This document shows positions 3,364 through 37,458 of a stretch of 64,000 bases of DNA, piece by piece (within the stretch, counting starts at the first letter, position 1; each line of letters starts with the position of its first letter). The notes beneath the pieces are model-generated. The model saw nothing but the letters and a program-made list of their open reading frames with translations. It was not told the DNA's origin and did no database searches. Source of the stretch: Microbacteriaceae bacterium PS02070. GTDB lineage: Bacteria; Actinomycetota; Actinomycetes; Actinomycetales; Microbacteriaceae. The DNA is taken from assembly GCA_029959865.1 (NCBI GenBank), contig JASCPE010000008.1, positions 1 to 64,000 of the forward strand, in the 5' to 3' direction. The position numbers were made by a program, and so were the translations under genes.

Positions 3364-4250
3364 CCGCCCAGAAGCTCGATGGGGTCGCCACTGCCGCCGC
3401 GATCAAGGCTGAGCTGAAAGAGCGCGTCACGGCGTTGGCTGAGAAGGGGATCTTTCCTGGACTCGGGACACTCCTCGTCGGTGACGACCCCGCATCGCGC
3501 TCATACGTGACGGGGAAGCACCGCGACTGTGCCGAGGTCGGCGTCGCCTCCATCTCTGTCGAGTTGCCCGCTGACGCGACGCAGGAGGAGATCGCGGACG
3601 CGGTCCGGAATCTCAACGAGGATGCCGCGGTGACCGGCTTCATCGTGCAGTTGCCGTTGCCGAAGGGCATCGACGAGAACGCGATCCTCGAGCTCATCGA
3701 TCCAGCCAAGGACGCGGATGGACTGCACCCCACGAATCTTGGTCGTCTCGTGCTCGGCGTCGACCCCGCCCACTCGGTGGAAGCGCCCCTGCCCTGCACG
3801 CCGGTGGGCGTCGTCGAACTGCTGACACGCCACGGCGTGAAGACCGCCGGTGCGCACGTGACCGTCATCGGCCGCGGTATCACCGTGGGTCGCCCGTTGG
3901 GGCTGCTCCTCACTCGCAAGGGCACGGACGCGACCGTCACCCTGACTCACTCCCGTACACCCGACCTCGCCGCGGAAGTGCGCCGTGCCGACATCGTGGT
4001 CGCTGCCGTCGGGCAGCCCCACCTCGTTCAGCCCGACTGGATCAAGCCGGGAGCAGCGGTGCTGGATGTCGGTGTGACCCGCGTGGGGACGACGCCCTCT
4101 GGCAAGGCGAAGCTCGCGGGTGACGTGGACCCGGGCGTCGCGGAGGTCGCGGCGTGGCTGTCGCCGAATCCCGGCGGCGTGGGCCCGATGACGCGCGCGA
4201 TGCTGGTCGCCAATGTTGTGGCGGCGGCGGAGCGCGTGACGCGCGGGTGA
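3360..4250 (+). CDS. folD: Bifunctional methylene-THF dehydrogenase / methenyl-THF cyclohydrolase
   Basis: FolD (296 residues) converts 5,10-methylene-THF to 10-formyl-THF with NADP in the cytoplasm. Seen in the sequence: the catalytic region [10 protein letters not shown] (Y49, K53), Q97 in VQLPLP, D120 in KDADGLHP, the dinucleotide loop [12 protein letters not shown], and the C-terminal PGGVGPMT signature. Length is typical. The ATG overlaps the glyA stop, so the two are translationally coupled and share the ZTP riboswitch. Together they deliver formyl groups for purine synthesis. It ends three bases before the convergent ABC transporter gene. Confidence 0.97.
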
Positions 4251-4253
4251 CAC

Positions 4254-4988
4254 TCAGGCGGTGAACCGGGAGAGGAATTCCCTCGTGCGCGGCTGCTCCG
4301 CGGCGCCGAAGAGACGAGAGGGTGCACCCTCTTCAACGATGTGACCGCCATCGAGGAAGACCACTCGCTCGGCGACGTCGCGAGCGAAGGCCATCTCATG
4401 GGTCGCCATCAGAATCGTCGTGCCACTCTCGGCAAGCGTGCGGACAAGGTCGAGCACCTCCGTGACCAGTTCCGGGTCGAGGGCTGAGGTGATCTCGTCC
4501 AGCAGCAGCACCTCGGGATCGGTCGCGATGGCTCGGATGATCGCGGCGCGCTGCTGCTGGCCGCCGGAGAGGCGGTCGGGGTGAGCCCGCGCCTTGTCTG
4601 CCAACCCGATCCGCTCCAGCAGGCTGAGGGCACGCTGCTCCGCCGACGCGCGAGGCTCGCGGTGCACGATGCGCGACGCGAGGGTCACGTTGTCCAGGAC
4701 GGACAGATGGGGGAACAGGTTGTAACTCTGGAAGACCGCTCCCAAGCGCGCACGCACCTGGTTCGCGTTGATCCGGGGGTCGGAGATGTCTTCTTGCCCG
4801 AGCCAGATCTGCCCATCGTCGATGGACTCGAGCAATCCCAGGCAGCGCAGGAGGGTCGACTTTCCCGAACCGCTCGGACCGATGAGCGCGACAACTTCGT
4901 GCTGGCGCAGCTCCAGGTCGATCCCGCGTAAGACGACCTGGTCTCTGAATGACTTCCACACGTTCTTCGCGCGCAAGACCACGCTCAT
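4254..4988 (-). CDS. Polar amino-acid ABC transporter, ATP-binding protein
   Basis: This 244-residue ATPase energises the adjacent importer at the inner face of the membrane. It has Walker A GPSGSGKST, the signature LSGGQQQR, Walker B LLLDEITSALDPE and the switch histidine in ATHEMAFA. The HisP/GlnQ type is indicated by size and by the LSGGQQQR form. The chosen start is the ATG at 4988, which overlaps the permease stop as ATGA; the much longer open frame upstream is out-of-frame permease sequence. It is the last gene of an SBP-permease-ATPase operon. The substrate is not predictable beyond a polar amino acid. Confidence 0.93.
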   Translation of the reverse strand: MSVVLRAKNVWKSFRDQVVLRGIDLELRQHEVVALIGPSGSGKSTLLRCLGLLESIDDGQIWLGQEDISDPRINANQVRARLGAVFQSYNLFPHLSVLDNVTLASRIVHREPRASAEQRALSLLERIGLADKARAHPDRLSGGQQQRAAIIRAIATDPEVLLLDEITSALDPELVTEVLDLVRTLAESGTTILMATHEMAFARDVAERVVFLDGGHIVEEGAPSRLFGAAEQPRTREFLSRFTA

Positions 4989-8292: not shown

Positions 8293-9096
8293 TCAGTAGG
8301 AGGCGCGCGCGTCGCCCTCGTCGTTCGGCGTCCACCGCGCCGCGAGGGCTTCCGACCCGCGCGCGACGGTGGCGACATCCGCGCCGACGAGCAAGAAGTC
8401 TGCTCCAGCGGCCACATACGCGTCCGCGGTCTCCGGGTCGAAGGCGTTGACCCCCACCGGCTTTCCTGCGCCGTGCACAGCGTCGAACGTGCGCCGCACG
8501 GCCGCGGTGACATCGGGATGGGTCTGCTGCCCCAAGAGCCCCATCGATGCCGCAAGGTCTGAGGGGCCGACGAAGATTCCGTCGACGCCGTCGACCGCGG
8601 CGATCTCTGCGGCGGCCGCCACGCCCTCGTGCGTCTCAATCTGCAGGAAGAGGGAAACGTAGGCGTCTGCGTTGGTGAGGTAATCCTCGACCCGGTTCCA
8701 TCGCGCCGACCGTGCCAGTGCCGAGCCGACTCCACGGACTCCCCGCGGCGGATAGCGCACCGCCTCGACGAGGGTGCGCGCGTGCTCTGCGGAGGACGCC
8801 ATCGGCACGAGGATGTTCTGGGCTCCGAGATCGAGCACTTGCTTGATCGTCACGGCGTCACCGAACGGGACGCGCACGACCGGCGTCGACGGGTACGGGG
8901 CCACGGCCTGCAGCTGGGCGAGAACGGTGGGGAGGCTGTTGGGAGAGTGCTCCATATCGATGAGAAGCCAATCCAGGCCGGCGCCGGCACCGATCTCTGC
9001 CATGACGGGGGAGCCGGAGCAGATCCAGTACCCCGCGAGCGGACGCTGTGCGCCCGCCAGCGCATCGCGGAAGGTCGGAGTCAGACGAAGCGGCAT
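8293..9096 (-). CDS. hpaI: HpcH/HpaI aldolase (4-hydroxy-2-oxoheptanedioate aldolase)
   Basis: This 267-residue class II pyruvate aldolase cleaves 4-hydroxy-2-oxoheptane-1,7-dioate to pyruvate and succinate semialdehyde, the last step of homoprotocatechuate degradation. Motifs: DMEHSPNS with the catalytic histidine, QIETHEGV with the metal-binding glutamate, and GIFVGPSDLAASMG with the metal-binding aspartate. The start overlaps the end of hpaH by 16 bases, supporting co-translation. It is the last gene of the hpa operon. A more general HpcH-type 2-keto-3-deoxy acid aldolase activity is possible, but context favours HpaI. Confidence 0.92.
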   Translation of the reverse strand: MPLRLTPTFRDALAGAQRPLAGYWICSGSPVMAEIGAGAGLDWLLIDMEHSPNSLPTVLAQLQAVAPYPSTPVVRVPFGDAVTIKQVLDLGAQNILVPMASSAEHARTLVEAVRYPPRGVRGVGSALARSARWNRVEDYLTNADAYVSLFLQIETHEGVAAAAEIAAVDGVDGIFVGPSDLAASMGLLGQQTHPDVTAAVRRTFDAVHGAGKPVGVNAFDPETADAYVAAGADFLLVGADVATVARGSEALAARWTPNDEGDARASY

Positions 9097-9884
9097 GTGA
9101 TGGTCCCCATCGGTCCGTAATCGCAGTGCACGGTGTCACCGCGCTGCACCCACAGCGGCCGGGTGAAGGATCCCGCGAGGAGAATCTCGCCCGCCTCCAG
9201 CCGCGCACCGTGCTGGTGGAACTTGTTTGCCAGCCATGCGATTCCTTCCGCCGGATGGCCGAGAACACCGGCGGCGACGCCGGTCTCCTCCACCTCGCCG
9301 TTGCGGAACAGGACGCCGGGAACCCACGGCAGATCGATCTCGTCGGGACGTTTCTGGGTCGAGCCGAGCACGATGCCTCCGTACGCGGCGTTGTCCGAGA
9401 TCGTGTCGACGATCGTGCGGCCCTCCATCTCGATGTGCGAGTTGAGGATCTCCAGCGCGGGGACGACGTAGTCGGTCGCCGCGAGCACATCGTCCCGGGT
9501 GCAGTCGGGGCCCTCCAGCGGGGCTTTCAGACAGAAGGCGAGCTCAACTTCGATGCGGACGTTGGAGTACAGGTCGACCGGGATCTCGGCACCGTCCCGC
9601 CACACCGTGTCGTCGAACATCACACCGTAGTCCGGTTCAGAGATTCCCGTCGCCTGCTGCATGGCCTTCGACGTGAGCCCGATCTTTCTTCCCACCAGTC
9701 GATGACCCTCGGCGAGCTTCGCGTCGCGCCACATGCCTTGGATGGCATATGAATCTTCGATTGTTGCCTGCGGGTAGCGTGCGGTGATGCGGGGGATCAT
9801 CCCGTGCGTTCGGTCGGCGTCGGCGAGTTCCGCGGCGATCGACTCGACCTCGGCGTCGCTGAGTCCTCGTTCGATCTGAGTCAT
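9081..9884 (-). CDS. hpaH: 2-oxo-hept-4-ene-1,7-dioate hydratase
   Basis: At 267 residues it has the length I expect for HpaH. It hydrates 2-oxohept-4-ene-1,7-dioate to the HpaI substrate. It belongs to the fumarylacetoacetase-like hydratase group: GRKIGLTSKAMQQ near residue 66, EVELAFCL with metal ligands, and SDNAAYGGIVLG. The ATG at 9884 is preceded by a strong AGGAGG; the longer open frame upstream overlaps hpaD and is rejected. It lies 13 bases after the hpaD stop and overlaps hpaI. Confidence 0.93.
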   Translation of the reverse strand: MTQIERGLSDAEVESIAAELADADRTHGMIPRITARYPQATIEDSYAIQGMWRDAKLAEGHRLVGRKIGLTSKAMQQATGISEPDYGVMFDDTVWRDGAEIPVDLYSNVRIEVELAFCLKAPLEGPDCTRDDVLAATDYVVPALEILNSHIEMEGRTIVDTISDNAAYGGIVLGSTQKRPDEIDLPWVPGVLFRNGEVEETGVAAGVLGHPAEGIAWLANKFHQHGARLEAGEILLAGSFTRPLWVQRGDTVHCDYGPMGTITCRFV

Positions 9885-9897
9885 GCGAGAGCCCTCC

Positions 9898-11059
9898 TCA
9901 GAGCTGGTGGCCGAGCTTGTATTCGCCCTGCTTCCACTCCGGCATCTCCTCGGTGTCGTTCTGCCGTGTGTAGGAGAAACCATCGGCGCCGATCGTGACC
10001 GCCATCTCGCTGGAGTCGGTGCGCGCGACCACGGGTTGCGGATTGCCATCGAGATCCAGGACGATGCTGCCGTCGGTGTACCAGCTCGGGACGACCGGGT
10101 TTCCCCACCAGTCGCGGCGCTGGTTATCGTGCACGTCCCACGTCACCACGGGATTGTCCGGGTCGCCGGTGTAGTAGTCCTGCGTGTAGACCTCGACGCG
10201 GTGCCCATCGGGATCGCGCAGGTACAGGTAGAACGCGTTGGAGACTCCGTGCCGGCCGGGACCCCGCTCGATCGCGTCCGACCGACGCAGCGCCCCGAGC
10301 TTGTCGCAGATGGCGAGGATGTTGTGCTTCTCATGGGTCGCGAAGCAGACGTGGTGCATCCGCGGTCCGTCGCCGCCGGTCATCGCGGTGTCGTGGACGG
10401 TCGGCTTGCGTCGCATCCACGCGGCGTAGACCGTGCCTTCCTCATCCTGAATGTCTTCCGTGACCCGGAAGCCGAGGTCCTGCATGTACTTCACGGCGCG
10501 TGGCACGTCGGGGGTGATCTGGTTGAAGTGGTCGAGGCGGACGAGTTCGCCCGGAATGTGGAGGTCATATCGCCACGACATTCGCTCGACGTGGTCGGTC
10601 TGGTGGAAGAACTCGTAAGGGAACCCGAGTGGGTCAACCACCCGGACAGAGTCCCCGATCCCCTTGACGAAGCCCTCGCGAGCGCGGCACATCGCACCCG
10701 AGTTCACGGTAGAAGGCCTCTGCGGCATCCAGGTCCTCGGCGGTGCGCACGCGGTACGAGAAGGCGGCGACTGCGGGAGCGTCGCCCTTTCTCAGCACGA
10801 GGTTGTGGTGGATGAACTCCTCCGTCGACCGCAGGTAGATCGTTTCGTCGTCCTCTTCCGTGACGTAGAGCCCGAGAATGTCGACGTAGAACTGCCGTGA
10901 GGCGGCGAGATCGGTGACGACGAGCTCCATGTAGGCGCAACGCAGAATGTCCGGCGGCGCGGCCGCGGGGGTCGCGATGGGGTTGTCGCTCTCAATGGGT
11001 GCCTCCTGGGAGACGAAGAATCCAGAGGAGGTCAGGGTCATGTCGTCGCGTTTGGTCAT
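9898..11059 (-). pseudogene. hpaD: 3,4-dihydroxyphenylacetate (homoprotocatechuate) 2,3-dioxygenase, broken by a frameshift
   Basis: Two overlapping frames together make a full extradiol dioxygenase of about 375 residues. The first part (from ATG 11059) carries DILRCAYMELVVTDLAASRQFY and ends ELGCDVPR; the second carries AREGFVKGIGDSVRV to the end. The switch lies near 10684-10692, where one surplus base (for example one C of GTGCCGCGC) explains the shift. All catalytic residues known from the Brevibacterium enzyme fall in the second part with matching spacing: H155, N157, H200, H214, R243, H248, Y257 and E267. No slippery heptamer is present. This is either a recent inactivating indel or a sequencing error; conservation of both halves shows no decay otherwise. 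An intact gene would open the catechol ring of homoprotocatechuate. Confidence 0.85.
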
Positions 11060-11095
11060 GTCAGCGTCCTTGCGTGTGTGATCAACGATCGAATG

Positions 11096-12622
11096 TCAGT
11101 GGTCTGCGTCGGCCTTGCCGAACGTGGGGTTGTGCACCTCGCCGAGGGTGATGTGCACCGCCTGCTGGTCGGTATAGAAGTCGATCGAGCGGTAGCCGCC
11201 CTCGTGACCGAGGCCGGATGCCTTCACGCCCCCGAACGGTGTGCGCAGATCACGCACGTTGTTCGAGTTGAGCCACACCATTCCGGCTTCCACCGACTGT
11301 GCGAAGTTGTGCGCCCGCTTCAGGTCGTTGGTCCACACATACGCGGCGAGGCCGTACTTCGTGTTGTTGGCGAGGGTGAGGGCTTCTTCCGTCGTGTCGA
11401 AGGGGGTGATCGCGACGACCGGGCCGAAGATCTCCTCCTGGAAGATCCGCGCGTCGGGAGAGACATCGGCGAACACAGTCGGTGCGACGAAGTTGCCCTC
11501 CTCGAACCCTTCGGGCCTTCCGCCGCCGGCGACTAGGCGCCCCTCGCTCTTGCCGATCTCGACGTAGCTCATCACCTTCTCGAAGTGCTCCGGGTGTACC
11601 AGGGCGCCCACTTCAGTCGCGGGGTCATGCGGGTAGCCGACCTTGACGCGTTGAGCCTGCGCGGCATAACGCTCCACGAACTCGTCGTAGACACCACGCT
11701 GGACGAGAATGCGCGAGCCGGCGGTGCAGCGCTCGCCGTTGAGGGAGAACACACCGAAGATCGTCGCGTCGATCGCCGCGTCCAGATCGGCGTCGTCGAA
11801 GACCACCGCGGGGGACTTGCCGCCGAGCTCCATCGACAAGCCCTTCAGGAAGGGCGCGGCGTTGCCGAAGATGATCTGACCCGTGCGGCTCTCGCCCGTG
11901 AAGGAGATGAGCGGGACATCGGGGTGCTTCACCAGGGCGTCACCGGCGTCTTCGCCGAGGCCGTTGACGAGGTTGAAGACACCTCGCGGGAGACCGGCCT
12001 CTTCGAAGATGCCTGCCCACAGCGATGCGGACAGCGGGGTGAACTCGGCAGGCTTGAGGACGACGGTGTTGCCCGTCGCGAGCGCCGGACCGAGCTTCCA
12101 CGACTCCAGCATGAACGGGGTGTTCCAGGGAGTGATCAACCCCGCGACGCCGATCGGCTTGCGGTTGACATAGTTGATCTGGCGACCGGGAACTTTGAAC
12201 GTGTCGTCGGTCTGCGCCACGATCAGGTCCGCGAAGAAGCGGAAGTTCTCGGCCGCGCGGCGGGCCTGGCCCAGTGCCTGTGTGATCGGCAGGCCGGAGT
12301 CGAACGACTCGAGCTCGGCCAGGCGAGCGTCTCGCGATTCCACGATGTCGGCGATCTTGTGCAGGATGCGGGAACGTTCGCGCGGGAGCATCCGCGGCCA
12401 GGGGCCCTCGGTGAAGGCACGAGTGGCGGCAGCGACGGCCTTGTCGATGTCTGCCTTCTTGCCAGCCGCGGCCTGCAGATAGGTCTGATTCGAGACAGGG
12501 TCGAGCACGTCGAACGTATCGCCGTCCTCACTGTCCACGAACTCGCCGTCGATGTAGTGCTGAATGCGCTCGGGGAGGTCAGCCGGGACGTGGCGGCGGT
12601 CGAGCGCGAGGGTGTCAGACAT
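11096..12622 (-). CDS. hpaE: 5-carboxymethyl-2-hydroxymuconate semialdehyde dehydrogenase
   Basis: This 508-residue NAD-dependent aldehyde dehydrogenase oxidises the ring-cleavage product of HpaD. Motifs: ITPWNTPFMLESWK for cofactor binding, FTGESRTGQ, the general base E265 in MELGGKSP, the nucleophile C299 in GERCTAGSR, and FGPVVAI near the C-terminus. The ATG at 12622 has AAGGAG upstream. A further in-frame extension overlaps the GntR gene and has no family similarity. It lies between the regulator and hpaD on the same strand, so it is part of the operon. Confidence 0.94.
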   Translation of the reverse strand: MSDTLALDRRHVPADLPERIQHYIDGEFVDSEDGDTFDVLDPVSNQTYLQAAAGKKADIDKAVAAATRAFTEGPWPRMLPRERSRILHKIADIVESRDARLAELESFDSGLPITQALGQARRAAENFRFFADLIVAQTDDTFKVPGRQINYVNRKPIGVAGLITPWNTPFMLESWKLGPALATGNTVVLKPAEFTPLSASLWAGIFEEAGLPRGVFNLVNGLGEDAGDALVKHPDVPLISFTGESRTGQIIFGNAAPFLKGLSMELGGKSPAVVFDDADLDAAIDATIFGVFSLNGERCTAGSRILVQRGVYDEFVERYAAQAQRVKVGYPHDPATEVGALVHPEHFEKVMSYVEIGKSEGRLVAGGGRPEGFEEGNFVAPTVFADVSPDARIFQEEIFGPVVAITPFDTTEEALTLANNTKYGLAAYVWTNDLKRAHNFAQSVEAGMVWLNSNNVRDLRTPFGGVKASGLGHEGGYRSIDFYTDQQAVHITLGEVHNPTFGKADADH

Positions 12623-12639
12623 CTGATCTCCTTGTTCGG

Positions 12640-13314
12640 TCAGAATGCGGGGAGGCCGAGAGCCTCGTACGGGTGTTCGTGGATCATGTAGGCGTCGAGT
12701 GTCGCGGAGCGGTGACGCCGCGCGGCGGTCTCGATCTCGGTGAGGGACGCGCCTGTCTCGATGAGTGCGACGATCTGTTCGTGCTCGCGCACCGACTCCT
12801 GAGCACGCCCGGGAACGAAGCTGAAAGTCGACGCGCGCAGGTTGCCCAGCCGCGACCACTCGCCACTGACGAGTTCGAGCAGCCGCGGATTGGGGCAGGC
12901 GTGGAAGAGCACCGAGTGGAACTTCTGGTTCAGTGCGGTGAAGGCAGGCGGATCGAAGTGATCGAGGGTCTCGATCATCTGCTCGTTCAGCGCGCGCGCG
13001 TGCTGCAAGTCGTCAGTGGTGAGGCTCCGTGCGGCGAGCGCAGTGGCGGTGCCTTCGAGAATCGAGAGCGCTTGCATGCTGTAGCGGTACTGCGAGTCAT
13101 CGACCATCGAGACGCGAGCGCCGACGTTGCGTTCGAAGGTCACCAGCCCCTCGGCCTCGAGCTGGCGGATGGCTTCGCGCACTGGGACGACGCTCATGTC
13201 GAGTTCGCCGGCGATGGAGCCGAGCACGAGGCGGTAGCCGGGGGTGAACGTGCCACGCGCGATGCGCTCTTTCACCCAGCGATAGGCGTGCTGCGACTTG
13301 CTGAGCTGACTCAT
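12640..13314 (-). CDS. GntR-family regulator, FCD type
   Basis: This 224-residue regulator has an N-terminal winged helix (about 1-70: AYRWVKERIARGTFTPGYRL, then SVVPVREAIRQLEAEGLV) and an all-helical FCD effector domain with potential metal-binding histidines (NQKFHSVLFHAC and HRSATLDAYM). It sits inside the hpa operon, its ATG overlapping the stop of the FAH-RraA gene, so it almost certainly controls this cluster. The near-palindrome ATCGTATATGAT in the divergent promoter at 14811-14822 resembles GntR/FCD operators. The effector is presumably an aromatic acid or pathway intermediate. Confidence 0.92.
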   Translation of the reverse strand: MSQLSKSQHAYRWVKERIARGTFTPGYRLVLGSIAGELDMSVVPVREAIRQLEAEGLVTFERNVGARVSMVDDSQYRYSMQALSILEGTATALAARSLTTDDLQHARALNEQMIETLDHFDPPAFTALNQKFHSVLFHACPNPRLLELVSGEWSRLGNLRASTFSFVPGRAQESVREHEQIVALIETGASLTEIETAARRHRSATLDAYMIHEHPYEALGLPAF

Positions 13315-14780
13315 CGACCGTTCCGCTCTGCGTCGTATTGCGCACGCCACTGCGCGTTCATCGGGAAGAGCTCTTTGACGGGGTACCCTTCGGCGACCTT
13401 CTCGGCGACCCACGCATCCGCGTCTTCTTGAGCGAGAGCGGCGTCCGCGACCTCTTCGGCCAGATCCGGCGGGATCACAATCACGCCGTCGGCATCGCCC
13501 ACGATGACATCGCCGGGCTGAACCGTCGCGCCGCCACACGCGATGGTGAGATCGATATCCCAGGGAACGTGGCGGCGGCCGAGGACGGCGGGATGGCCTC
13601 CCACCGTATAGACGGGGAGCCCCACGGCAGTGACGGCGTCAAGGTCTCGCACCCCGCCGTCTGTCACGATGCCCGCGGCGCCCCGAGCCTTCGCGCGGAT
13701 CGCCAGGACATCGCCCAGCGTTCCGGACGAGTCCACCCCGCGTGCCTCGATGATGAGGACTTCGCCCTCGCCGACGGCGTCGAACGCGCGCTTCTGTGCG
13801 TTGTACCCACCACCGTGGGACTCGAAGAGGTCCTCGCGGTTGGGGACGAAACGAAGCGTCTTCGCGGTCCCGACGAGCTTCTGACCCGGGTGGAGCGGGC
13901 GGACCCCATCGATCGTGACGTTGTTCAGGCCGCGCTTGCGCAGTTGCTGAGACAGACCCGCCACCGGCGTCCGGGTGAGCTTGTCGCGGAGCTCCGGTGA
14001 CAGCCCGAGCGGCGCGAGCCCGGCCGCGTCGCGAGACCCCCACGCCTCGGTGCGCTGCTGGTCGTCAACAGCGGGGAGTGAGCCCACGCCGGGGTCAAAC
14101 GAGCCCGATCCTTCCACGACGGTCGTGAGGAGCCGGCCCGACGAGGCTCCCGTGCCGGGTGCATCGACTTCGACCTCGACGACCTGACCGGGGGTGACCA
14201 CGGTCGATCCGGCCGGAGTTCCGGTCAGGATGACGTCGCCGGTTTCCAGCGTGAAGTGCTGCGAGAGGTCGGCGACGAACTGGGGGAGTGAGAAGAGCAG
14301 AGTGTCCGTGGTGTCGTCTTGCGCCAACTCGCCGTCGACCCAGGTCCGCAGGCGCAGCCCGGCGGGATCGATCGTCCGGGCGTCGATCAGTTCCGGGCCG
14401 ATCGGGGTGTATCCATCGCCGCCCTTGGAGCGGACGTTCGAGCCCTTGTCCGACGCGCGCAGGTCGTACAGGCCGAAGTCGTTCGACGCGGTCACGAAGG
14501 CGACGTGGTCCCACGCGCGCTCGAGTGGCACGCTGCGGGCAGGTTCGCCGATGACGAGGGCGATCTCGCCTTCGAAGGCGAGGAGTTCGGTGCCCGCGGG
14601 GCGGGTGATGGTGGCACCTGACGCACTGACCGAGCTCGACGGCTTGAAGAAGTAGGAAGGCTGCGCCGGCGTCCGTCCACGCTGAGCGGCGCGAGAGGGA
14701 TAAGCAACGTGGACGGCGATGATCTTGCCGGGTCGCTGCGGCAGGCCGGTGAACCGTGCGTCTGCGATTTCTTCGGTCAT
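13311..14780 (-). CDS. FAH-domain isomerase/decarboxylase (HpaG-like) fused to RraA/HMG-aldolase-like domain
   Basis: This 489-residue protein has two domains. Residues about 15-225 are a fumarylacetoacetate hydrolase fold: metal ligands E70 and E72 in FEGEIALVIG and D101 in NDFGLYDLRASDKG, then GGDGYTPIGPEL and GDVILTGTPAG. Residues about 265-489 are an RraA-like domain: GGGYNAQKRAFDAVGEGEVL, GDVLAIRAKARGAAG, DGGVRD (R378, D379) and VIVGDADGVIVIP. In enterobacterial HpaG the partner half is a second FAH domain. RraA-like class II aldolases can decarboxylate oxo-acids, so the second domain may carry the OPET decarboxylase step; this is inference. Start ATG 14780 with GAGGGAG upstream. It is first in the operon and overlaps the GntR gene. 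Confidence 0.88.
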   Translation of the reverse strand: MTEEIADARFTGLPQRPGKIIAVHVAYPSRAAQRGRTPAQPSYFFKPSSSVSASGATITRPAGTELLAFEGEIALVIGEPARSVPLERAWDHVAFVTASNDFGLYDLRASDKGSNVRSKGGDGYTPIGPELIDARTIDPAGLRLRTWVDGELAQDDTTDTLLFSLPQFVADLSQHFTLETGDVILTGTPAGSTVVTPGQVVEVEVDAPGTGASSGRLLTTVVEGSGSFDPGVGSLPAVDDQQRTEAWGSRDAAGLAPLGLSPELRDKLTRTPVAGLSQQLRKRGLNNVTIDGVRPLHPGQKLVGTAKTLRFVPNREDLFESHGGGYNAQKRAFDAVGEGEVLIIEARGVDSSGTLGDVLAIRAKARGAAGIVTDGGVRDLDAVTAVGLPVYTVGGHPAVLGRRHVPWDIDLTIACGGATVQPGDVIVGDADGVIVIPPDLAEEVADAALAQEDADAWVAEKVAEGYPVKELFPMNAQWRAQYDAERNGR

Positions 14781-14794
14781 GAGCTCCCTCGCTC

Positions 14795-14839
14795 TTGCTT
14801 CGTATCTGAAATCGTATATGATCATTCCAGCCCGGGCAA
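14795..14839. promoter_or_regulatory. Divergent hpa promoter with candidate GntR operator
   Basis: Between the FAH-RraA gene and the MHS transporter, ATCGTATATGAT (14811-14822) is a near-perfect palindrome. On the plus strand TTGCTT (14795-14800) and TATGAT (14817-14822) are spaced by 16 bases. On the minus strand TTGCCC (14839-14834) and TACGAT (14816-14811) are spaced by 17 bases. Both -10 boxes overlap the palindrome, so one bound repressor could block both directions. The GntR/FCD regulator in the operon is the likely ligand. Confidence 0.65.
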
Positions 14840-14890: not shown

Positions 14891-16306
14891 ATGAGCTCAT
14901 CCTCTTACGAACACGGTCAGCAGCGGCCCGGGTCTCAGCCGGACGGCTTCACCCCTACGGGCACCATCGCGTCGGCGACGGAACGCCGCCGTGTCGTCTT
15001 TGCGACGGTGGTCGGTACCACGGTCGAGTGGTACGACTTCTTCATCTACGCGCAAGCCGCCGGGCTCGTCTTCGCGACGCTCTTCTTCCAGCCGGCGGGC
15101 GAGGGCTTTGCGCAGATCCTCGCCTTCATCACCGTCGGAATCAGCTTCCTGTTCCGACCCCTGGGCGCGTTCCTGGCGGGACACCTCGGTGACCGCTACG
15201 GTCGCCGACTCGTCCTGATGCTGACGCTCATCCTCATGGGTGTCGCAACGACCCTGGTCGGCCTGCTCCCGACCTACGCTGCCATCGGTATCGCTGCGCC
15301 GATCCTGCTCATCTTCCTGCGCATCGTGCAGGGTATCTCTGCCGGCGGCGAGTGGGGCGGCGCGGTCCTGATGGCTGTTGAGCACGCTCCTCGGCATCGC
15401 CGCGGCCTCTTCGGCGCATCCCCGCAGATCGGTGTCCCCCTGGGGCTTCTGCTCGCATCGGGCACGATGGCGCTGATGACGGTCATCGCGCCGGGTGATG
15501 CCTTCCTCGAGTGGGGCTGGCGCGTGCCGTTCCTGCTGTCGATCGTGCTCATCCTCGTGGGGTACTACATCCGACGCCGCGTCGAGGAGAGCCCCGTCTT
15601 CACGGAGCTTGCGGCACGCAAGGAGCAGGCGAACACGCCGATCGCCCAGCTGTTCCGCAAGCACACCCCCCTCGTGATCATCGCCGCTCTCGTCTTCGCC
15701 GGAAACAACGCCGTCGGGTACATGACCACCGGCGGCTACATCCAGGGCTACGCGACCAACCCCGAGGGGCCCGTAGGCCTGGATCGCAGTGATGTGCTCG
15801 GCGCGGTCACGCTCTCGGCGGTGTCGTGGCTCGTCTTCACGTGGCTCTCCGGCTACGTCGCCGACAAGATCGGCCGTCGCAACACGTATCTCATCGGATG
15901 GGTGCTGCAGCTCGGTGGTGTGTTCCTGCTCTTCCCGCTGGTGAACACGGGGTCGCTCATGAACCTCACGATCGCCCTCGTCGTCCTCGCGGTCGGACTC
16001 GGCTTCACCTACGGTCCGCAGGCGGCGCTCTACACGGAGCTCTTCCCCGCCTCGATCCGGTTCTCCGGCGTCTCGATCTCCTACGCGATCGGCGCGATCC
16101 TCGGTGGTGCGTTTGCGCCGACCATCGCGCAGGCGATCGTCCAGGCCACCGGCTCCACCGGTGCGGTGACGGTTTACCTGGCGGGTATGACCCTGCTCGG
16201 CCTCATTGCGACTCTGCTCCTGCGTGATCGTTCCGGAATTCCGCTCGGTCCGGATCACGAAGAGGAGCAGGCCAAGAGCCCGATCATCGGAGTCGGGCGC
16301 GCCTGA
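14891..16306 (+). CDS. MHS-family MFS transporter, probable aromatic acid:H+ symporter
   Basis: This 471-residue inner-membrane protein has twelve predicted helices. The family signatures are clear: GTTVEWYDFFIYAQAAGLVF at helix 1, HLGDRYGRRLVL in loop 2-3, LRIVQGISAGGEWGGAVLMAVE and WGWRVPFLLS. MHS members import carboxylates and aromatic acids by proton symport. It is divergent from the hpa operon under a shared promoter and 31 bases upstream of the monooxygenase gene, so it probably imports the aromatic growth substrate (a hydroxyphenylacetate or hydroxybenzoate). The exact substrate is inferred only from context. Confidence 0.9.
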   Translation: MSSSSYEHGQQRPGSQPDGFTPTGTIASATERRRVVFATVVGTTVEWYDFFIYAQAAGLVFATLFFQPAGEGFAQILAFITVGISFLFRPLGAFLAGHLGDRYGRRLVLMLTLILMGVATTLVGLLPTYAAIGIAAPILLIFLRIVQGISAGGEWGGAVLMAVEHAPRHRRGLFGASPQIGVPLGLLLASGTMALMTVIAPGDAFLEWGWRVPFLLSIVLILVGYYIRRRVEESPVFTELAARKEQANTPIAQLFRKHTPLVIIAALVFAGNNAVGYMTTGGYIQGYATNPEGPVGLDRSDVLGAVTLSAVSWLVFTWLSGYVADKIGRRNTYLIGWVLQLGGVFLLFPLVNTGSLMNLTIALVVLAVGLGFTYGPQAALYTELFPASIRFSGVSISYAIGAILGGAFAPTIAQAIVQATGSTGAVTVYLAGMTLLGLIATLLLRDRSGIPLGPDHEEEQAKSPIIGVGRA

Positions 16307-16337: not shown

Positions 16338-18212
16338 ATGCAGTTCCACCACCACGGATACGTCTCGACCGACCCCCGGGTGCTCCCGGCGGAAGGATAC
16401 GGCACCCAGCGCCCCGAGGTGCTGCCCGACGAGATGGATGTTCTCATCGTCGGGGCGGGGCCCGCCGGGATGCTGCTGGCCGCGCAGTTGTCGCGGTTCC
16501 CCAGCGTGCGCACCCATATCGTCGAGCGCCGGCCGGGGCGGCTCGCGCTCGGCCAGGCCGACGGTATCCAAGCACGCAGTGTGGAGACCTTCCAGGCGTT
16601 CGGATTCGCGGAGCGGATCACGGCGGAGGCGTATCAGATCGCCGAGATGAACTTCTGGGCGCCCGATCCGGCGGATCGCTCGAAGATCATCCGCACCGCA
16701 CGCGCCGATGATGACCCCCACGGCATCAGCGAGTTCCCGCACCTCATCGTCAATCAGGCACGAGTTCTGGACTACTTCGCCGAGTACGCAGCCAACGGTC
16801 CTGGGCGGGTGCGGCCCGACTTCGGTTGGGAGTTCGTCACCTTGAGTCTTGACCCGGAGGCCGAGTACCCGGTCTCGGTCACACTCCGGTCGACCGGCGA
16901 GGACGGCGACGGCGCTGAGCGTGTCGTGCGTGCGAAGTACGTCGTCGGATGTGACGGGGCGCGCAGCGCTGTCCGTGAGTCGATCGGCCGCAAACTCGTG
17001 GGCCAGTCGGCGATGCATGCGTGGGCTGTGATGGACACGCTCGCTGTCACGGACTTTCCGGATATCCGCATCAAATGCGCCATCCAGTCCGCCGCGGGCA
17101 GCATTCTCCTCATCCCCCGCGAGGGTGGCCACCTCTTCCGGCTCTATGTGGACCTCGGAGAGACGGCGGCCGAGGACCGTGGGGCGGTGCGTCAGACGAC
17201 GGTCGAGCGGGCGATCGAACGCGCCAACGCGATCCTCCAGCCGTACACCCTCGATGTGAAGGACGTCGCCTGGTACAGCGTCTATGAAGTCGGACACCGG
17301 CTGACCGACAAGTTCGACGACGTACCGGAGGGGGAGGAGCGCACGCCGCACGTCTTCATCGCGGGTGACGCCTGTCACACGCACAGCGCCAAAGCTGGTC
17401 AGGGCATGAACGTCTCGATGCAAGACGGGTTCAACCTCGGCTGGAAGCTGGGCTCCGTCCTCACCGGGCGTAGCCCGGAGTCGCTCCTCTCGACCTACTC
17501 GGCGGAGCGCCAGGTGATCGCTCAGAACCTGATCGACTTCGACAAGCAGTGGTCAACGCTCATGGCGAAGAAGCCGAAGGAATTCGATTCCCCCGAGGAG
17601 CTCGCAGAGTTCTACACGTCCACGGCTGAGTTCCCGGCAGGCTTCATGACGCAGTACGAGCCGTCGATGATCGTCGGCGAGGCCACGCACCAGGACCTCG
17701 CCGCGGGATTCCCGATCGGCAAACGGTTCAAATCCGCGCGCGCTGTGCGCGTGGGGGACTCGGTCACCCGGCACCTGGGTCACCACGCCCACGCGGACGG
17801 GCGCTGGCGCATCTACGCTTTCGCCGACCAGGGCGATTCCCTGCTCGAGTCGTGGGCGCAGTGGCTGGGGGAAGCTGCGGACTCTCCCCTCCGTCGGTTC
17901 ACTCCCGCCGGGACGGACCCGGACAGCGTCTTCGACGTGAAGGTGATCTACCCCCGGCGGTATACGGACGTCGAGCTGAGCAAGGTGAACCCCGTCTTCC
18001 TCCCCCGCGTGGGTCCGCACGCCCTCGTCGACTACGAGAAGGTCTGGGCTGCGCACCCCGAAGACGACATCTTCGCGCTCCGAGGTATCTCACCGGACGG
18101 CGCCGTCGTCGTGGTGCGTCCTGACCAGTACGTCGCCCACGTGCTGCCGCTGACGGCCACCACCGAGCTGGCCGATTTCTTCTCCCAGAACATGCGGGCG
18201 CAGGACGCCTGA
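16338..18212 (+). CDS. FAD-dependent aromatic hydroxylase (MobA / phenol 2-monooxygenase type)
   Basis: This 624-residue class A flavoprotein hydroxylates an aromatic ring with NAD(P)H and oxygen. Domains: Rossmann FAD fold (VLIVGAGPAGMLLAAQL, about residues 35-51), a DG motif (YVVGCDGARSAVRESIG, about 205-221), the GD motif VFIAGDACHTHSAKAGQGMN (about 342-361), and a C-terminal thioredoxin-like domain (about 450-620). The closest family I recognise is 3-hydroxybenzoate 4-monooxygenase (MobA) and phenol hydroxylases. AGGAAGGA precedes the ATG. It is cotranscribed with the MHS transporter. As the hpa genes need homoprotocatechuate, it may hydroxylate 3- or 4-hydroxyphenylacetate in place of HpaBC; this is untested inference. 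Confidence 0.88.
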   Translation: MQFHHHGYVSTDPRVLPAEGYGTQRPEVLPDEMDVLIVGAGPAGMLLAAQLSRFPSVRTHIVERRPGRLALGQADGIQARSVETFQAFGFAERITAEAYQIAEMNFWAPDPADRSKIIRTARADDDPHGISEFPHLIVNQARVLDYFAEYAANGPGRVRPDFGWEFVTLSLDPEAEYPVSVTLRSTGEDGDGAERVVRAKYVVGCDGARSAVRESIGRKLVGQSAMHAWAVMDTLAVTDFPDIRIKCAIQSAAGSILLIPREGGHLFRLYVDLGETAAEDRGAVRQTTVERAIERANAILQPYTLDVKDVAWYSVYEVGHRLTDKFDDVPEGEERTPHVFIAGDACHTHSAKAGQGMNVSMQDGFNLGWKLGSVLTGRSPESLLSTYSAERQVIAQNLIDFDKQWSTLMAKKPKEFDSPEELAEFYTSTAEFPAGFMTQYEPSMIVGEATHQDLAAGFPIGKRFKSARAVRVGDSVTRHLGHHAHADGRWRIYAFADQGDSLLESWAQWLGEAADSPLRRFTPAGTDPDSVFDVKVIYPRRYTDVELSKVNPVFLPRVGPHALVDYEKVWAAHPEDDIFALRGISPDGAVVVVRPDQYVAHVLPLTATTELADFFSQNMRAQDA

Positions 18213-18213
18213 G

Positions 18214-19878
18214 TCAGTCCTTCGGCGCAGAGTTCACTCGGTAGATCTCCTCCTGGTACGGCGCGACGACCTCGCGAGAGACGCGCAGATCCAGGAGGAG
18301 ATAGGGGCGCTCGGCGGCCGGAGCGGAGGCCCACTCGGCGAGCGCGTCGAGGTCCGCGAGCTCACGCACGACGACTCCACGAGCACCGACGGCGGAGGCG
18401 ATGCCGGCGAAGTCCACATCCGGGATGAGCATCGGCTCGGGTGCGAGTCCCTTCCGTCCGTAGAGGTGCACTTCGGCGCCATACGCCCCGTCGTTCCACA
18501 CCACCGCCAGGCCGTGGCCGCCGGCGACTCGGACGGCCGACTCGATGTCCGCCAGGGCCATCAAGCCGCCGCCGTCACCGGTCGTCAGGACCGTGACCGC
18601 GTGGGGCTTGGCCATGACCGCTCCCGGGACGCTGGGGAACCCGAGTCCGATCGACTGGAAGGCCGTTCCCACCATGAGCATGCGATCGGGGGCGGCAACG
18701 GGCCAGTACATGTTCGCCCATCCGATGAAGTGGCCGCCGTCTGAGACGACGACACGATCCTCGGGGAGAAGCTCGCCGATGCGTCGGGCAGCGGCGCGGG
18801 GGTCGAGGCGTCCGTCCGGTCCGAACTCAGGACCCGACTCCCTTTCGCGCAGCGGCGCGAACTCGATCGACTCGCGCCATCCGGACGGATCGCGGTCCAG
18901 CTCGCCGATCTCTCGGACGAGGTCCTGCGCGATCGTCCGTGCATCGCCGCGAAGATAACCGCCGACGTGCGGGTGCGTGGCGGCCGGCGCGAGGTCGATC
19001 TGCACGACACGGGTCGTGGGGGAGAAGAGAGCGCCGAAGCGGGTCGTGAACTGATTGAGCGATGCTCCGAAGACGACAGCGACATCGGCGTCGCGGATCA
19101 GGTCCATGGCTGCCTCCGCCCCGAATCCGCCGGTCACACCGAGGTCGAACTCGCCGCGCGGGAAGATGCCGCGTCCGAGGGCCGTCGTTGCCGTCACGGC
19201 TCCGACGAGGTCGGCGAGTTCTCCGAGTGCGGCCCCCGCTCCGGAGGTCCACGCGCCGCGACCGGCCAAGAGGAACGGCCGCTCTGCGCGGGACAACTCC
19301 GCTGCCAGGCGCGCGATCGCAGCGCGGGTGAACGCGTCGGACGGTGCGAGAGGGCTCGGCAGCTGAAGCGGCGGCAGGTCGGGGATCGGTCCGCCCTCGA
19401 GCGGCGCGACGTCGTAGGGGATCGCGAGGACAGTGGGAACTCGGTAGGTGAGGGCGTGCTCGATTGCGATCTGCGTCGTGGCTGCGGCATCGGTGCGGCC
19501 GACCGTGTACGTGCGCGCCCCGACGGCGGAGGCGAGCGCGATCTGATCGACGTCCCACGCGCGCGGGCCCGACGTCGGCTCGTCGCCGACGACGAGGACG
19601 AGCGGTACCCGTGCCTGCACGGACTCGGCGAGGGCCGTCAGGGTGTTGGTGAACCCGGCCCCGTAGGTCGCGGTCGCGGCGGCGAGCCGACCCGACGCGC
19701 GGTGGAATGCGTCGGCAGCGACGACGGCACCTGCCTCGTGCCGGACCGCCGTGAATGTGGCGTCGGTGTCACGTTCAAGAGTGTCCAGGAACCAGGCGTT
19801 GCCATTGCCCATCAGGCCGAAGACATGATCGATGTGCGTGGCGAGGGTGCGAGCGACGTGAGCGGAGACGGTGGGCAT
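18214..19878 (-). CDS. Thiamine diphosphate-dependent enzyme (acetolactate synthase / 2-oxoacid decarboxylase family)
   Basis: This 554-residue protein has the three-domain TPP fold. The cofactor-activating glutamate is E48 in VRHEAGAVVAADAFHRASG, the central domain is at about 190-330, and the TPP/Mg motif runs from GDG at 434 to N462 (VVWNDGAYGAEV). Family members include acetolactate synthase, benzoylformate and phenylpyruvate decarboxylases. Its specificity is not readable. Its position next to the hydroxylase suggests a 2-oxoacid decarboxylase acting on an aryl-pyruvate or aryl-glyoxylate, feeding the pathway. It converges with the monooxygenase gene with a one-base gap. Confidence 0.85.
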   Translation of the reverse strand: MPTVSAHVARTLATHIDHVFGLMGNGNAWFLDTLERDTDATFTAVRHEAGAVVAADAFHRASGRLAAATATYGAGFTNTLTALAESVQARVPLVLVVGDEPTSGPRAWDVDQIALASAVGARTYTVGRTDAAATTQIAIEHALTYRVPTVLAIPYDVAPLEGGPIPDLPPLQLPSPLAPSDAFTRAAIARLAAELSRAERPFLLAGRGAWTSGAGAALGELADLVGAVTATTALGRGIFPRGEFDLGVTGGFGAEAAMDLIRDADVAVVFGASLNQFTTRFGALFSPTTRVVQIDLAPAATHPHVGGYLRGDARTIAQDLVREIGELDRDPSGWRESIEFAPLRERESGPEFGPDGRLDPRAAARRIGELLPEDRVVVSDGGHFIGWANMYWPVAAPDRMLMVGTAFQSIGLGFPSVPGAVMAKPHAVTVLTTGDGGGLMALADIESAVRVAGGHGLAVVWNDGAYGAEVHLYGRKGLAPEPMLIPDVDFAGIASAVGARGVVVRELADLDALAEWASAPAAERPYLLLDLRVSREVVAPYQEEIYRVNSAPKD

Positions 19879-29750: not shown

Positions 29751-31178
29751 TCAGCCGACGTTGTCCTCGTACTCCACGTCCTTCGTCTCGCGGGAGAGGA
29801 CCAGCGCGACGAGCGTGAGGATCGCAGCCCCCGTGAGGTAGAGGCCGACGAGCCAGGTGCCGCCGTCGGCAAGGCCCCACAGCAGCGTGGCGATGATCGG
29901 TGCCAGAGCGGCTCCGAGGATCGAGGACACGTTGTAGGAGATCGCCGACCCCGTGTACCGCACGTTCGTCGGGAAGAGCTCGGGAAGGAGAGCACCCATC
30001 GGACCGAACGTCGCTCCCATCAGGACGAAGCCGAAGACAAGGAAGGCCTGTACGAGGGCTCCGGTGAACTTCGGGTCCGCCTGCGGCGACAGGAGGAGCG
30101 TGAACGTGAGGCCGAACACGGCGATTCCGAGCGTGATCCAGATGAGGAGCTTGCGGCGACCGAGCGAGTCGGCGACAGGGCCCGAGAGCAACGTGAAGAT
30201 GCCGAAGAAGATCACACCGATGATCTGCATCGTCACGAAATCGGTGTAGCCGAATCCGAGCCCCGGCACATACGCCGCGGCGTCGAAGGGTGTGCCGGCC
30301 TCGAGGGCAGCTGCTTCCGCGTCGGCGGTGGGGAGCTTGGTGCCGTACGCCAGCGTGAAGCTGGTCATCAGGTAGAACAGCACGTAGGTCGCCAGCATGA
30401 TGAAGGTACCGAGGATGAGCGCGCGCCAGTGCAGGCGGATGGTCTCCCCGAGCGGGAACTTCTTGATTGCACCACGCTTCGCTGCCTGGGAGAAGGTGGA
30501 CGACTCCACGAGCTTGAGGCGAACCCATAGACCGACGATCACCATGACGGCGGAGAAGAGGAACGGCACGCGCCAGCCCCAGGCGAGGAACTCTTCCGAG
30601 CGCAGACCCGCGCCGTCCGGATGCGGGAGCGCGAAGTAGATCGCGAGGAAGACCGAGTTGGCGATGATGAAGCCGATCGGCGCACCGAGCTGGGGGAAGG
30701 TCCCGTACCAGGCACGCTTGCCCTTGGGGGCGTTCTCCGTTGCGACCAGCGCAGCGCCCGACCACTCGCCGCCGAGCGCGAACCCCTGGAACAGACGGAG
30801 GATCAGCAGCAGGATCGGCGCGAGCAGACCGACGCTATCGAACGTGGGAAGACACCCGATGAGGAACGTCGCGATACCCATGGTCAGCAGTGAAGCGACG
30901 AGCGTGGCCTTGCGGCCGAACCGGTCGCCGAAGTGGCCGAAAACGACGGCGCCGATCGGACGCGCGACCATCGCTGCCCCGAACACGCTGAACGAGGCGA
31001 TGAGGGCCGTGGTCTCGTTGCCCGTGGGGAAGAAGAGGATGGGGAAGACGAGGACCGCCGCGGTGGCGTAGACGTAGAAGTCGTAGAACTCGATCGTCGT
31101 ACCGACCAGGCTCGCGGTGATGACGCGCGAACGGGGATTGGCGGGTGCCGGAGCGGACGTGGAAGAAGCGGTGGACAT
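29751..31178 (-). CDS. MHS-family MFS transporter
   Basis: This 475-residue membrane protein has twelve predicted helices and the MHS signatures: LVGTTIEFYDFYVYATAAVL at helix 1, FGHFGDRFGRKATLV in loop 2-3, LRLFQGFALGGEWSGAALVATE and WGWRVPFLFS. Members import carboxylates such as citrate, 2-oxoglutarate, shikimate or betaines by proton symport. Unlike the transporter at 14.9-16.3 kb, no catabolic genes flank it, so the substrate cannot be guessed. A loop between helices 7 and 8 carries an insert of about 25 residues (LPTADAEAAALEAGTPFDAAAYVP). Confidence 0.9.
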   Translation of the reverse strand: MSTASSTSAPAPANPRSRVITASLVGTTIEFYDFYVYATAAVLVFPILFFPTGNETTALIASFSVFGAAMVARPIGAVVFGHFGDRFGRKATLVASLLTMGIATFLIGCLPTFDSVGLLAPILLLILRLFQGFALGGEWSGAALVATENAPKGKRAWYGTFPQLGAPIGFIIANSVFLAIYFALPHPDGAGLRSEEFLAWGWRVPFLFSAVMVIVGLWVRLKLVESSTFSQAAKRGAIKKFPLGETIRLHWRALILGTFIMLATYVLFYLMTSFTLAYGTKLPTADAEAAALEAGTPFDAAAYVPGLGFGYTDFVTMQIIGVIFFGIFTLLSGPVADSLGRRKLLIWITLGIAVFGLTFTLLLSPQADPKFTGALVQAFLVFGFVLMGATFGPMGALLPELFPTNVRYTGSAISYNVSSILGAALAPIIATLLWGLADGGTWLVGLYLTGAAILTLVALVLSRETKDVEYEDNVG

Positions 31179-37184: not shown

Positions 37185-37237
37185 CCGGATGCCTTTCGGT
37201 CGTTCCGGGGTCGCGCAGCGCTCACGTCGTGATCGCT

Positions 37238-37380
37238 CGTGCTACCTCTCATCCGGACTAGCGACCTGGGTCGCATCACCGTCGGTTCCGGAATTTCACC
37301 GGATCAACGCTCCGATCAGAGGATCGCAGCGCTCGCGGACTTTCACCGCCGGTTCGGATTCACACCGACCCCGGAGCACG
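37238..37380 (-). ncRNA. FMN riboswitch (RFN element)
   Basis: The minus strand carries the full RFN set: GGGGTCGGTGTGAATCC, GGCGGTGAAAGTCCGCGA, GATCCGGTGAAATTCCGG, AACCGACGGT and AGTCCGGATGAGAGGTAGCAC in order, with closing stems. It precedes ribD and would shut the rib operon down when FMN is abundant. No T-rich terminator lies between aptamer and ribD; control is likely translational. A -10-like TAAACT (37399-37394) lies just upstream of the aptamer. Confidence 0.97.
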
Positions 37381-37458
37381 TATTGCCGAGGCCAGTTTAG
37401 TGGACCGTTCACAGGTCGGCTTCACACGACGTCACGTAGCCTGAACGAGGAGGTTCCG

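Follow-up and report, generated by a model that had tools for sequence, protein, structure and literature searches.

How is homoprotocatechuate (HPC) formed in a bacterium that carries genes for its meta-cleavage and no hpaB? This question is raised by a 64,000-nucleotide stretch of DNA from Microbacteriaceae bacterium PS02070 (here called the window; positions 1 to 64,000 of contig JASCPE010000008.1, assembly GCA_029959865.1), which corresponds to contig C55 of a 2.70-Mb draft genome in 56 contigs. Within the window, a minus-strand HPC meta-cleavage operon, running from 14825 down to 8293, is divergent from the genes for an MHS-family transporter and a hydroxylase, and next to the hydroxylase gene lies a gene for a thiamine diphosphate (ThDP)-dependent enzyme. 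An earlier note on this DNA, made from the sequence alone, had suggested that the hydroxylase and the ThDP enzyme form an alternative upper route to HPC. That suggestion is supported here by co-occurrence with HpaD, by gene order, by the lack of overlap with HPPD and by the absence of HpaB from most carriers, and further by amine oxidase neighbors in some loci and, in four loci, by an aminotransferase gene and a permease gene next to that of the ThDP enzyme. We consider it probable that the locus encodes the Gram-positive route of tyrosine breakdown via 4-hydroxyphenylacetate and HPC, in which both upper enzymes would be unrelated to the textbook ones.

The note had also remarked that the cluster lacks hpaBC and that finding these genes elsewhere in the genome would count against its proposal. 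A search of the window's own genome (2.70 Mb, 56 contigs) with the HpaB model PF03241 gave no matches, so that, as far as hpaB is concerned, both the remark and the proposal stand.

The hydroxylase and its genomic company

The description of the hydroxylase as a MobA-like, single-component flavin adenine dinucleotide (FAD)-dependent enzyme was borne out. Both of its Pfam domains, FAD_binding_3 and Phe_hydrox_dim, score over their cut-offs, NF006144 (PRK08294), a model named phenol 2-monooxygenase, gives 996 bits against a cut-off of 560, and the closest solved structure is that of MobA (2DKH), matched over the full length with 658 bits.

We then compared the distribution of the hydroxylase, counted at E <=1e-120, with that of HpaD across 218 genomes of the same order. 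The hydroxylase was present in 55 genomes and HpaD in 57, the latter number comprising 56 genomes over the cut-off and the frameshifted copy of the window's own genome (it keeps five genomes at 324 to 331 bits and omits G049, G093, and G163, at ~244 bits). The two proteins occurred together in 52 genomes (Fisher p = 1.5e-40, a value that ignores kinship), with the genes no more than 25 kb apart in 40 of these, and each was found in 21 genera out of 77 (for HpaD, with the threshold relaxed to E <=1e-60). The five HpaD genomes without the hydroxylase are those that score 324 to 331 bits, compared with at least 403 bits for the other 51 over the cut-off, and in L107, the one of the five that was examined, the HpaD-like protein is 36% identical to that of the window. 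Three genomes (G151, G170, and G171) have the hydroxylase without HpaD. HpaB, by comparison, was found in 8 of the 218 genomes and was absent from 47 of the 52 carriers of hydroxylase and HpaD; in a separate search of named-locus genomes, it was not found in 23 of the 31 that were searchable (32 loci submitted), including all six with a class III HpaD. HPPD, which belongs to the homogentisate route, was present in 21 of the 218 genomes, none of which carried either the hydroxylase (one-sided p = 0.0016) or the ThDP enzyme (one-sided p = 0.02).

A scan of named genomes returned 409 relatives of the hydroxylase, of which the best 80 loci were kept, with up to 10 kb fetched on each side. Stretches from the window's own genome (L001 to L008) were excluded from the locus counts, and genes in the relatives' loci were called with a custom codon-score script, not a published gene finder. 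HpaE and/or an HPC dioxygenase was encoded in the hydroxylase locus in 54 of the 80 cases, often with the hpa genes in the same order as in the window, and the cluster to which the MHS transporter belongs has a member in 33 of the 80. Six of the 54 linked loci, all labeled as Proteobacteria (two Psychrobacter, two Marinobacter, one Halomonas, and an Eikenella metagenome-assembled genome), carry a nonhomologous class III HPC dioxygenase, and that of L037, the sole member scanned, passes the TIGR02298 (HpaD_Fe) cut-off. The loci of distant hydroxylase relatives (L089 to L093 and L111 to L115, at 50 to 58% identity, and L095, at 59%) had no match to HpaD, HpaH, HpaI, or the FAH-RraA fusion of the window; their only resemblances to the cluster were aldehyde dehydrogenases 31 to 42% identical to HpaE and one transporter at 31%.

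A gene for either a Cu amine oxidase or subunit B of tyramine oxidase neighbors the hydroxylase gene in 10 of 82 loci, among them loci on plasmid pTC2 of Paenarthrobacter aurescens TC1 and on a Rhodococcus plasmid. An aldehyde dehydrogenase resembling phenylacetaldehyde and aminobutyraldehyde dehydrogenases, which reached no cut-off among the models shown, accompanies the amine oxidases in 7 of these 10 loci (p = 4e-5) and the ThDP gene in 2 of 31. Its separation from the ThDP gene is as expected if the ThDP enzyme yields an acid directly; an unlinked dehydrogenase gene would produce the same pattern. A second dehydrogenase, ALDH10, is a frequent neighbor (22 of 80 loci). Its best model is succinate-semialdehyde dehydrogenase, although it scores below that model's cut-off, and for this reason we dropped it as a candidate hydroxyphenylacetaldehyde dehydrogenase; it is better read as a putative outlet for the product of HpaI.

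The residues and phylogeny of the hydroxylase bear on its substrate. The enzyme of the window keeps the MobA substrate contacts Asp75, His135, Lys247, and Tyr271 (MobA numbering), the roles of which in MobA are treated in a passage of PMC3546652. Across an alignment of 88 related rows, which includes the second copy from L015 and leaves out L093, Asp75, His135, Lys247, Leu258, Ile260, and Tyr271 are retained in 87 or 88 sequences, and a hydroxylated aromatic (phenolic) acid is therefore expected as the substrate. Because His135 and Lys247 are also found in all nine comparison rows, they cannot separate the isomers. The group stands apart at position 78, which is Gln in 86 of the 88 rows and Ala in MobA and in 8 of the 9 comparison rows; the window's protein has Gln78-Ala79 where MobA has Ala78-Cys79.

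In a quick tree of 98 hydroxylases, the window's enzyme falls in a clade of 88 rows (here with L093 and without the second L015 copy; SH-aLRT 100, stem 0.49) that contains 58 of the 59 hpa-linked rows, including the six class III-linked hydroxylases, which form two separate groups within it. Outside the clade lie MobA (2DKH) and an enzyme from Paracoccus (L112) that is annotated as 3-hydroxybenzoate 4-monooxygenase and located within a pca operon. A passage of PMC12915361 assigns a fungal p-coumarate 3-hydroxylase to the wider clade that includes MobA, which implies that para-substituted acids can be accepted in that clade. In Microbacterium fluvii (L015), a second, divergent MobA-like copy (12388-14286), encoded on the other strand at a distance of ~0.5 kb from the hpa-linked copy, is placed outside the 88-row clade. 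Overall, a place for the hydroxylase in the HPC pathway is well supported; its exact substrate isomer is one that we infer.

The ThDP enzyme

At a threshold of at least 49% identity (which excludes matches in G181, G203, G134, and G139 and a second one in G155), 35 of the 218 genomes encode the ThDP enzyme, and none of these lacks the hydroxylase or HpaD. Since the ThDP gene is not within 25 kb of either of the other two genes in 15 of the 35, linkage alone is insufficient to account for this co-occurrence. Of the 15 unlinked loci, nine were retrieved; in four of these (L103, L104, L105, and L108; one genus), the ThDP gene is adjoined by genes for an APC permease, an aminotransferase, and a regulator of the Lrp/AsnC type. 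The aminotransferase is over the cut-off of NF002878 in L104, and its best solved relative is 4R2N, a putative phenylalanine aminotransferase. In L098, a further ThDP-like open reading frame (ORF; 2609-4294) lies two genes upstream of the pathway ThDP gene, beside an agmatinase-like ORF (both names guessed from the first residues). From this distribution, the ThDP enzyme is likely to belong to the same pathway as the hydroxylase and HpaD.

In the window, the stop codons of the ThDP and hydroxylase genes face each other 1 bp apart; the two genes are thus convergent, which rules out their cotranscription there. In two Thermocrispum loci, the ThDP gene and the hydroxylase gene are successive on the same strand.

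The ThDP protein has the three TPP domains listed in Table 1. Glu48, which we take to be the catalytic Glu, and Gly434-Asp435-Gly436 and Asn462, presumably the GDG...N motif, are invariant in the 31 of 36 rows that were aligned (L015, L075, L088, L101, and L108 were omitted). Fifty NCBI models matched, and the 25 of them that were shown all score below their cut-offs. An AlphaFold2 model (pLDDT 91.5) has a fold of the acetolactate synthase/pyruvate oxidase type, the fold matches shown are ~18 to 27% identical to the protein, and sequence profiles place it with the same mixture of activities as the fold comparison. IPDC (1OVM) scored 61 bits, compared with 117 for the best match; the list of structural neighbors is not exhaustive. 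On these grounds the affinities of the protein are to acetolactate synthase, pyruvate oxidase, and 2-hydroxyacyl-CoA lyase, with no clear affinity to decarboxylases. Bound FAD, as in pyruvate oxidase, may also be a feature of 4-hydroxyphenylpyruvate oxidase (EC 1.2.3.13); the nearest folds of the ThDP protein are of mixed activity.

The lower pathway and the hpaD frameshift

The note had recognized the genes of the lower meta-cleavage pathway, and HpaE and HpaH indeed reach their curated cut-offs. HpaI and the C-terminal ORF of HpaD miss theirs, the latter (9898-10728) scoring 308.6 bits with TIGR02295 against a cut-off of 321.4 and covering profile positions 85 to 298. What the note had overlooked is that hpaD is frameshifted: its N-terminal piece starts at an ATG at 11060, and the gene is 2 bases short near 10680 in comparison with all seven aligned relatives. 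This copy is the sole HpaD match in its own genome at the threshold used. The frameshift may be an assembly error, which is possible because the genome is a 56-contig draft, or a real loss, and the strain may therefore not complete the pathway unless a sequencing error is responsible. The defect limits statements about the strain, not those about the gene set.

In place of the two FAH domains by which HpaG is recognized, the window encodes a single FAH domain fused to RraA, and the match to the HpaG C-terminal model is 139 bits versus 276. No scanned protein of the cluster matched the HpaF isomerase in the models shown, and the RraA half of the fusion may supply the missing step. In L107, an RraA-like protein that is 68% identical to the RraA half of the fusion adjoins HpaH and HpaI without an FAH half. 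The window's own genome also gave no match to the intradiol dioxygenase model PF00775 or to the LigB model PF02900, so that protocatechuate made from 3-hydroxybenzoate would be without an intradiol or LigB outlet.

The proposed pathway and its alternatives

What was observed is the genes themselves, the neighbors that they keep across relatives, and their phyletic distribution; from these we infer every reaction of the following scheme. An aminotransferase encoded elsewhere would convert tyrosine to 4-hydroxyphenylpyruvate. The ThDP enzyme would decarboxylate this compound, most likely giving 4-hydroxyphenylacetate directly (the reaction of the orphan enzyme EC 1.2.3.13) and otherwise the aldehyde, and the MHS protein would take up external 4-hydroxyphenylacetate. 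The MobA-like flavoprotein, as one component using NAD(P)H and O2, would hydroxylate 4-hydroxyphenylacetate at C3 to give HPC, replacing HpaBC. Judging by homology, HpaD, HpaE, the FAH-RraA fusion, HpaH, and HpaI would then convert HPC to pyruvate and succinate semialdehyde.

Several observations weigh against this scheme. HpaB is present in 5 of the 52 carriers of hydroxylase and HpaD, and in G203 a distance of ~2.5 kb separates it from hpaD, the MobA-like gene being located on a different contig; strict replacement of HpaB is disfavored in that genome. In a phylum-wide sample of 276 genomes, HpaD (E <=1e-95) was found in nine, five of which lacked the hydroxylase (E <=1e-200), so that the link between the two holds in only part of the phylum; outside the order this sample is too thin for the co-occurrence to be extended. 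HpaE and an HPC dioxygenase were both missing from the fetched stretch in 26 of the 80 hydroxylase loci, some of which end at contig edges. The ThDP enzyme, again counted from 49% identity upward, is missing from 20 of the 55 genomes that have the hydroxylase, and five of the nine unlinked ThDP loci (L098 to L102) had no match to the aminotransferase, the permease, or the Lrp-type regulator. The MobA contacts, which are kept in most of the nine comparison rows, are no worse a fit for 3-hydroxyphenylacetate than for the 4-isomer. The fold of the ThDP protein matches BbmA (HKA synthase), AHAS, pyruvate oxidase, 2-hydroxyacyl-CoA lyase, benzaldehyde lyase, and others at Z values of 35 to 38, which are so nearly equal that these neighbors cannot be ranked by activity. 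Finally, the genomes of A. arilaitensis and Rue61a lie outside the comparison, and the genes are tied to no genome with a known tyrosine phenotype.

The retained contacts lead directly to a rival in which the hydroxylase is a 3-hydroxyphenylacetate 4-hydroxylase that feeds HPC, with 4-hydroxyphenylacetate as a minor substrate or none. MobA's own reaction is the 4-hydroxylation of a meta-hydroxy acid, and a passage of PMC7201708 states that most E. coli strains use both isomers through the hpa cluster. We nevertheless think this assignment unlikely: the tyramine and amine oxidase neighbors, together with the aminotransferase and permease on the ThDP side, indicate tyrosine-derived para compounds, the hydroxylase and HPPD do not overlap in the 218 genomes, and Arthrobacter Rue61a, whose hydroxylase is outside the comparison, is described in a passage of PMC3534580 as growing on 4-hydroxyphenylacetate and tyrosine. 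That the enzyme is an ordinary 3-hydroxybenzoate 4-hydroxylase or phenol hydroxylase, merely adjoining the hpa operon, is hardly credible. MobA is the best solved match and the NCBI model is named for phenol 2-monooxygenase, but the long-stemmed clade separates the group from MobA and from the pca-linked relative, the Gln at position 78 distinguishes it from almost all of the comparison rows, and the hydroxylase co-occurs with HpaD.

The reading of the hydroxylase would stand even if the ThDP enzyme had another role, either as a carboligase like benzaldehyde lyase or 2-hydroxyacyl-CoA lyase or as an aryl-glyoxylate decarboxylase. Its closest solved relatives (AHAS, pyruvate oxidase, 2-hydroxyacyl-CoA lyase, and benzaldehyde lyase, at ~18 to 27% identity) would allow this, as would the five of nine unlinked loci without a tyrosine-related neighbor; the presence of HpaD and the hydroxylase in all 35 genomes with the subfamily and the aminotransferase that adjoins the ThDP gene in four loci make it rather unlikely. 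The aryl-glyoxylate (benzoylformate-type) entry, which the earlier note had offered beside an aryl-pyruvate, was rejected as the main reading, because its product would reach protocatechuate and not lead to HPC and neither a PF00775 nor a PF02900 dioxygenase was found in the genome; the aryl-pyruvate entry is favored. A different kind of doubt, compatible with any reading of the gene set, is that the pathway is decaying in this strain, with hpaD a pseudogene and the upper genes relics. The 2-base gap and the lack of a second HpaD match speak for decay, which we regard as doubtful yet worth keeping in mind, given that the translations of the other eight listed cluster genes are free of stops, that assembly error is possible in such a draft, and that a cluster of HpaD ORFs is represented in 42 of the 80 relatives' loci.

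The tyrosine route via 4-hydroxyphenylacetate and HPC, with an upper part that is wholly nonorthologous, is accordingly the reading that we prefer. It has a bolder form, in which the ThDP enzyme is EC 1.2.3.13 and represents a new, arylpyruvate-oxidizing branch of the pyruvate oxidase/acetolactate synthase fold that works without an aldehyde stage, the one-component hydroxylase has been transferred horizontally into Proteobacteria, and the upper route as a whole is a full nonorthologous replacement. We put this form forward tentatively and would not quite expect all of it to hold.

Organization of the locus

The nine genes of the cluster are listed in Table 1. The hydroxylase gene, which the earlier note had called cotranscribed with the MHS transporter gene, follows the latter on the same strand with a gap of 31 bp; a AGGAAGGA stretch precedes the hydroxylase start, and a common transcript for the two is plausible. 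Within the divergent promoter region, a near-palindrome, AATCGTATATGATCATT (window 14810-14826), overlaps the start of the FAH-RraA gene and could be an operator of the GntR regulator.

Table 1. Genes of the HPC cluster, with positions in the window
Gene product	Position	Strand	Profile or structure match
HpaI-like aldolase (4-hydroxy-2-oxoheptanedioate aldolase)	8293..9096	-	TIGR02311, 307 bits, below cut-off of 368.8; PF03328
HpaH, 2-oxo-hept-4-ene-1,7-dioate hydratase	9081..9884	-	TIGR02312, 352.5 bits, above cut-off of 351.5
HpaD, extradiol HPC 2,3-dioxygenase, frameshifted near 10680	9898..11060	-	TIGR02295
HpaE	11096..12622	-	TIGR02299, 658 bits, above cut-off of 638
GntR/FCD regulator	12640..13314	-	PF00392 + PF07729
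FAH-RraA fusion, presumed isomerase/decarboxylase step in HpaG's place	13311..14825	-	NF009399, 805 bits, cut-off 444; PF01557 + PF03737
MHS-family (MFS) transporter, presumed aromatic-acid uptake	14891..16306	+	TIGR00883, 395 bits, below cut-off of 443
Single-component class A FAD hydroxylase, proposed 4-hydroxyphenylacetate 3-hydroxylase, 624 aa	16338..18212	+	NF006144; 2DKH
ThDP enzyme, proposed 4-hydroxyphenylpyruvate oxidase or decarboxylase	18214..19878	-	PF02776/PF00205/PF02775

Three features lie elsewhere in the window. A second MHS-family transporter gene is found at 29754-31178 (TIGR00883, 413 bits, below the cut-off). A ZMP/ZTP riboswitch at 1973-2055 overlaps the 5' end of a long ORF, the later part of which is a serine hydroxymethyltransferase, and an FMN riboswitch at 37236-37382 lies upstream of ribD on the minus strand.

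Significance and relation to known systems

Tyrosine breakdown by Gram-positive bacteria is said to be the subject of two papers from the 1970s, one of which names the homoprotocatechuate pathway in its title, and Blakley is reported to have described 4-hydroxyphenylpyruvate oxidase (EC 1.2.3.13) in 1977 from a tyrosine-degrading Arthrobacter. For the two initial steps of this route, both unassigned, the hydroxylase and the ThDP enzyme are good candidates, and an old gap would thereby become directly testable. The 2010 Arthrobacter genome paper (PMC2991359) states, in the passage concerned, that two upper-pathway genes were not located, and it reports growth of A. arilaitensis on tyrosine. In Arthrobacter Rue61a, according to a passage of PMC3534580, tyrosine, 4-hydroxyphenylacetate, and HPC support growth and 3-hydroxybenzoate does not; in the same source, the sequenced strain most closely related to Rue61a is A. 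aurescens TC1. GapMind, as a passage of PMC9007349 explains, omitted tyrosine degradation via 4-hydroxyphenylpyruvate oxidase for want of knowledge. The A. globiformis 4-hydroxyphenylpyruvate oxidase was cloned into plants by Bayer's group, according to a passage of PMC9338888, and a sequence for EC 1.2.3.13 may therefore exist in patents. Among the matches listed, the main texts of open-licence PMC papers described neither a MobA-like hydroxylase for 4-hydroxyphenylacetate nor a gene for 4-hydroxyphenylpyruvate oxidase (Table S3.6 of the Rue61a paper may name a hydroxylase), and the proposed assignment of both upper genes was likewise not found in print there.

Once both genes have names, annotation software could recognize the pathway in roughly a quarter of the genomes sampled from the order (55 of 218). 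If our assignments are true, they would provide a sequence for the orphan enzyme EC 1.2.3.13 and a self-sufficient hydroxylase for catechol production.

The proposed system resembles several known ones in part. HpaBC (EC 1.14.14.9) catalyzes the same reaction that we propose for the hydroxylase, 4-hydroxyphenylacetate to HPC, and delivers its product to the same meta-cleavage enzymes; it is, however, a two-component system (as a passage of PMC10816480 describes), whereas the enzyme of the window is a one-component class A flavoprotein. With MobA, the 3-hydroxybenzoate 4-hydroxylase of Comamonas testosteroni (2DKH), the window's enzyme shares full-length homology and the substrate-contact residues, and it differs from MobA in belonging to a separate clade, in its hpa rather than pca context, and in having Gln78-Ala79 for Ala78-Cys79. 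The HPPD-homogentisate route has the same starting material, but its ring and cleavage enzymes are different, and none of the 21 genomes with HPPD among the 218 has the hydroxylase. The ThDP protein has the fold and the three-domain order of acetolactate synthase, pyruvate oxidase, and 2-hydroxyacyl-CoA lyase, with ~18 to 27% identity in the fold matches shown, and the step that we would assign to it is that of 4-hydroxyphenylpyruvate oxidase (EC 1.2.3.13).

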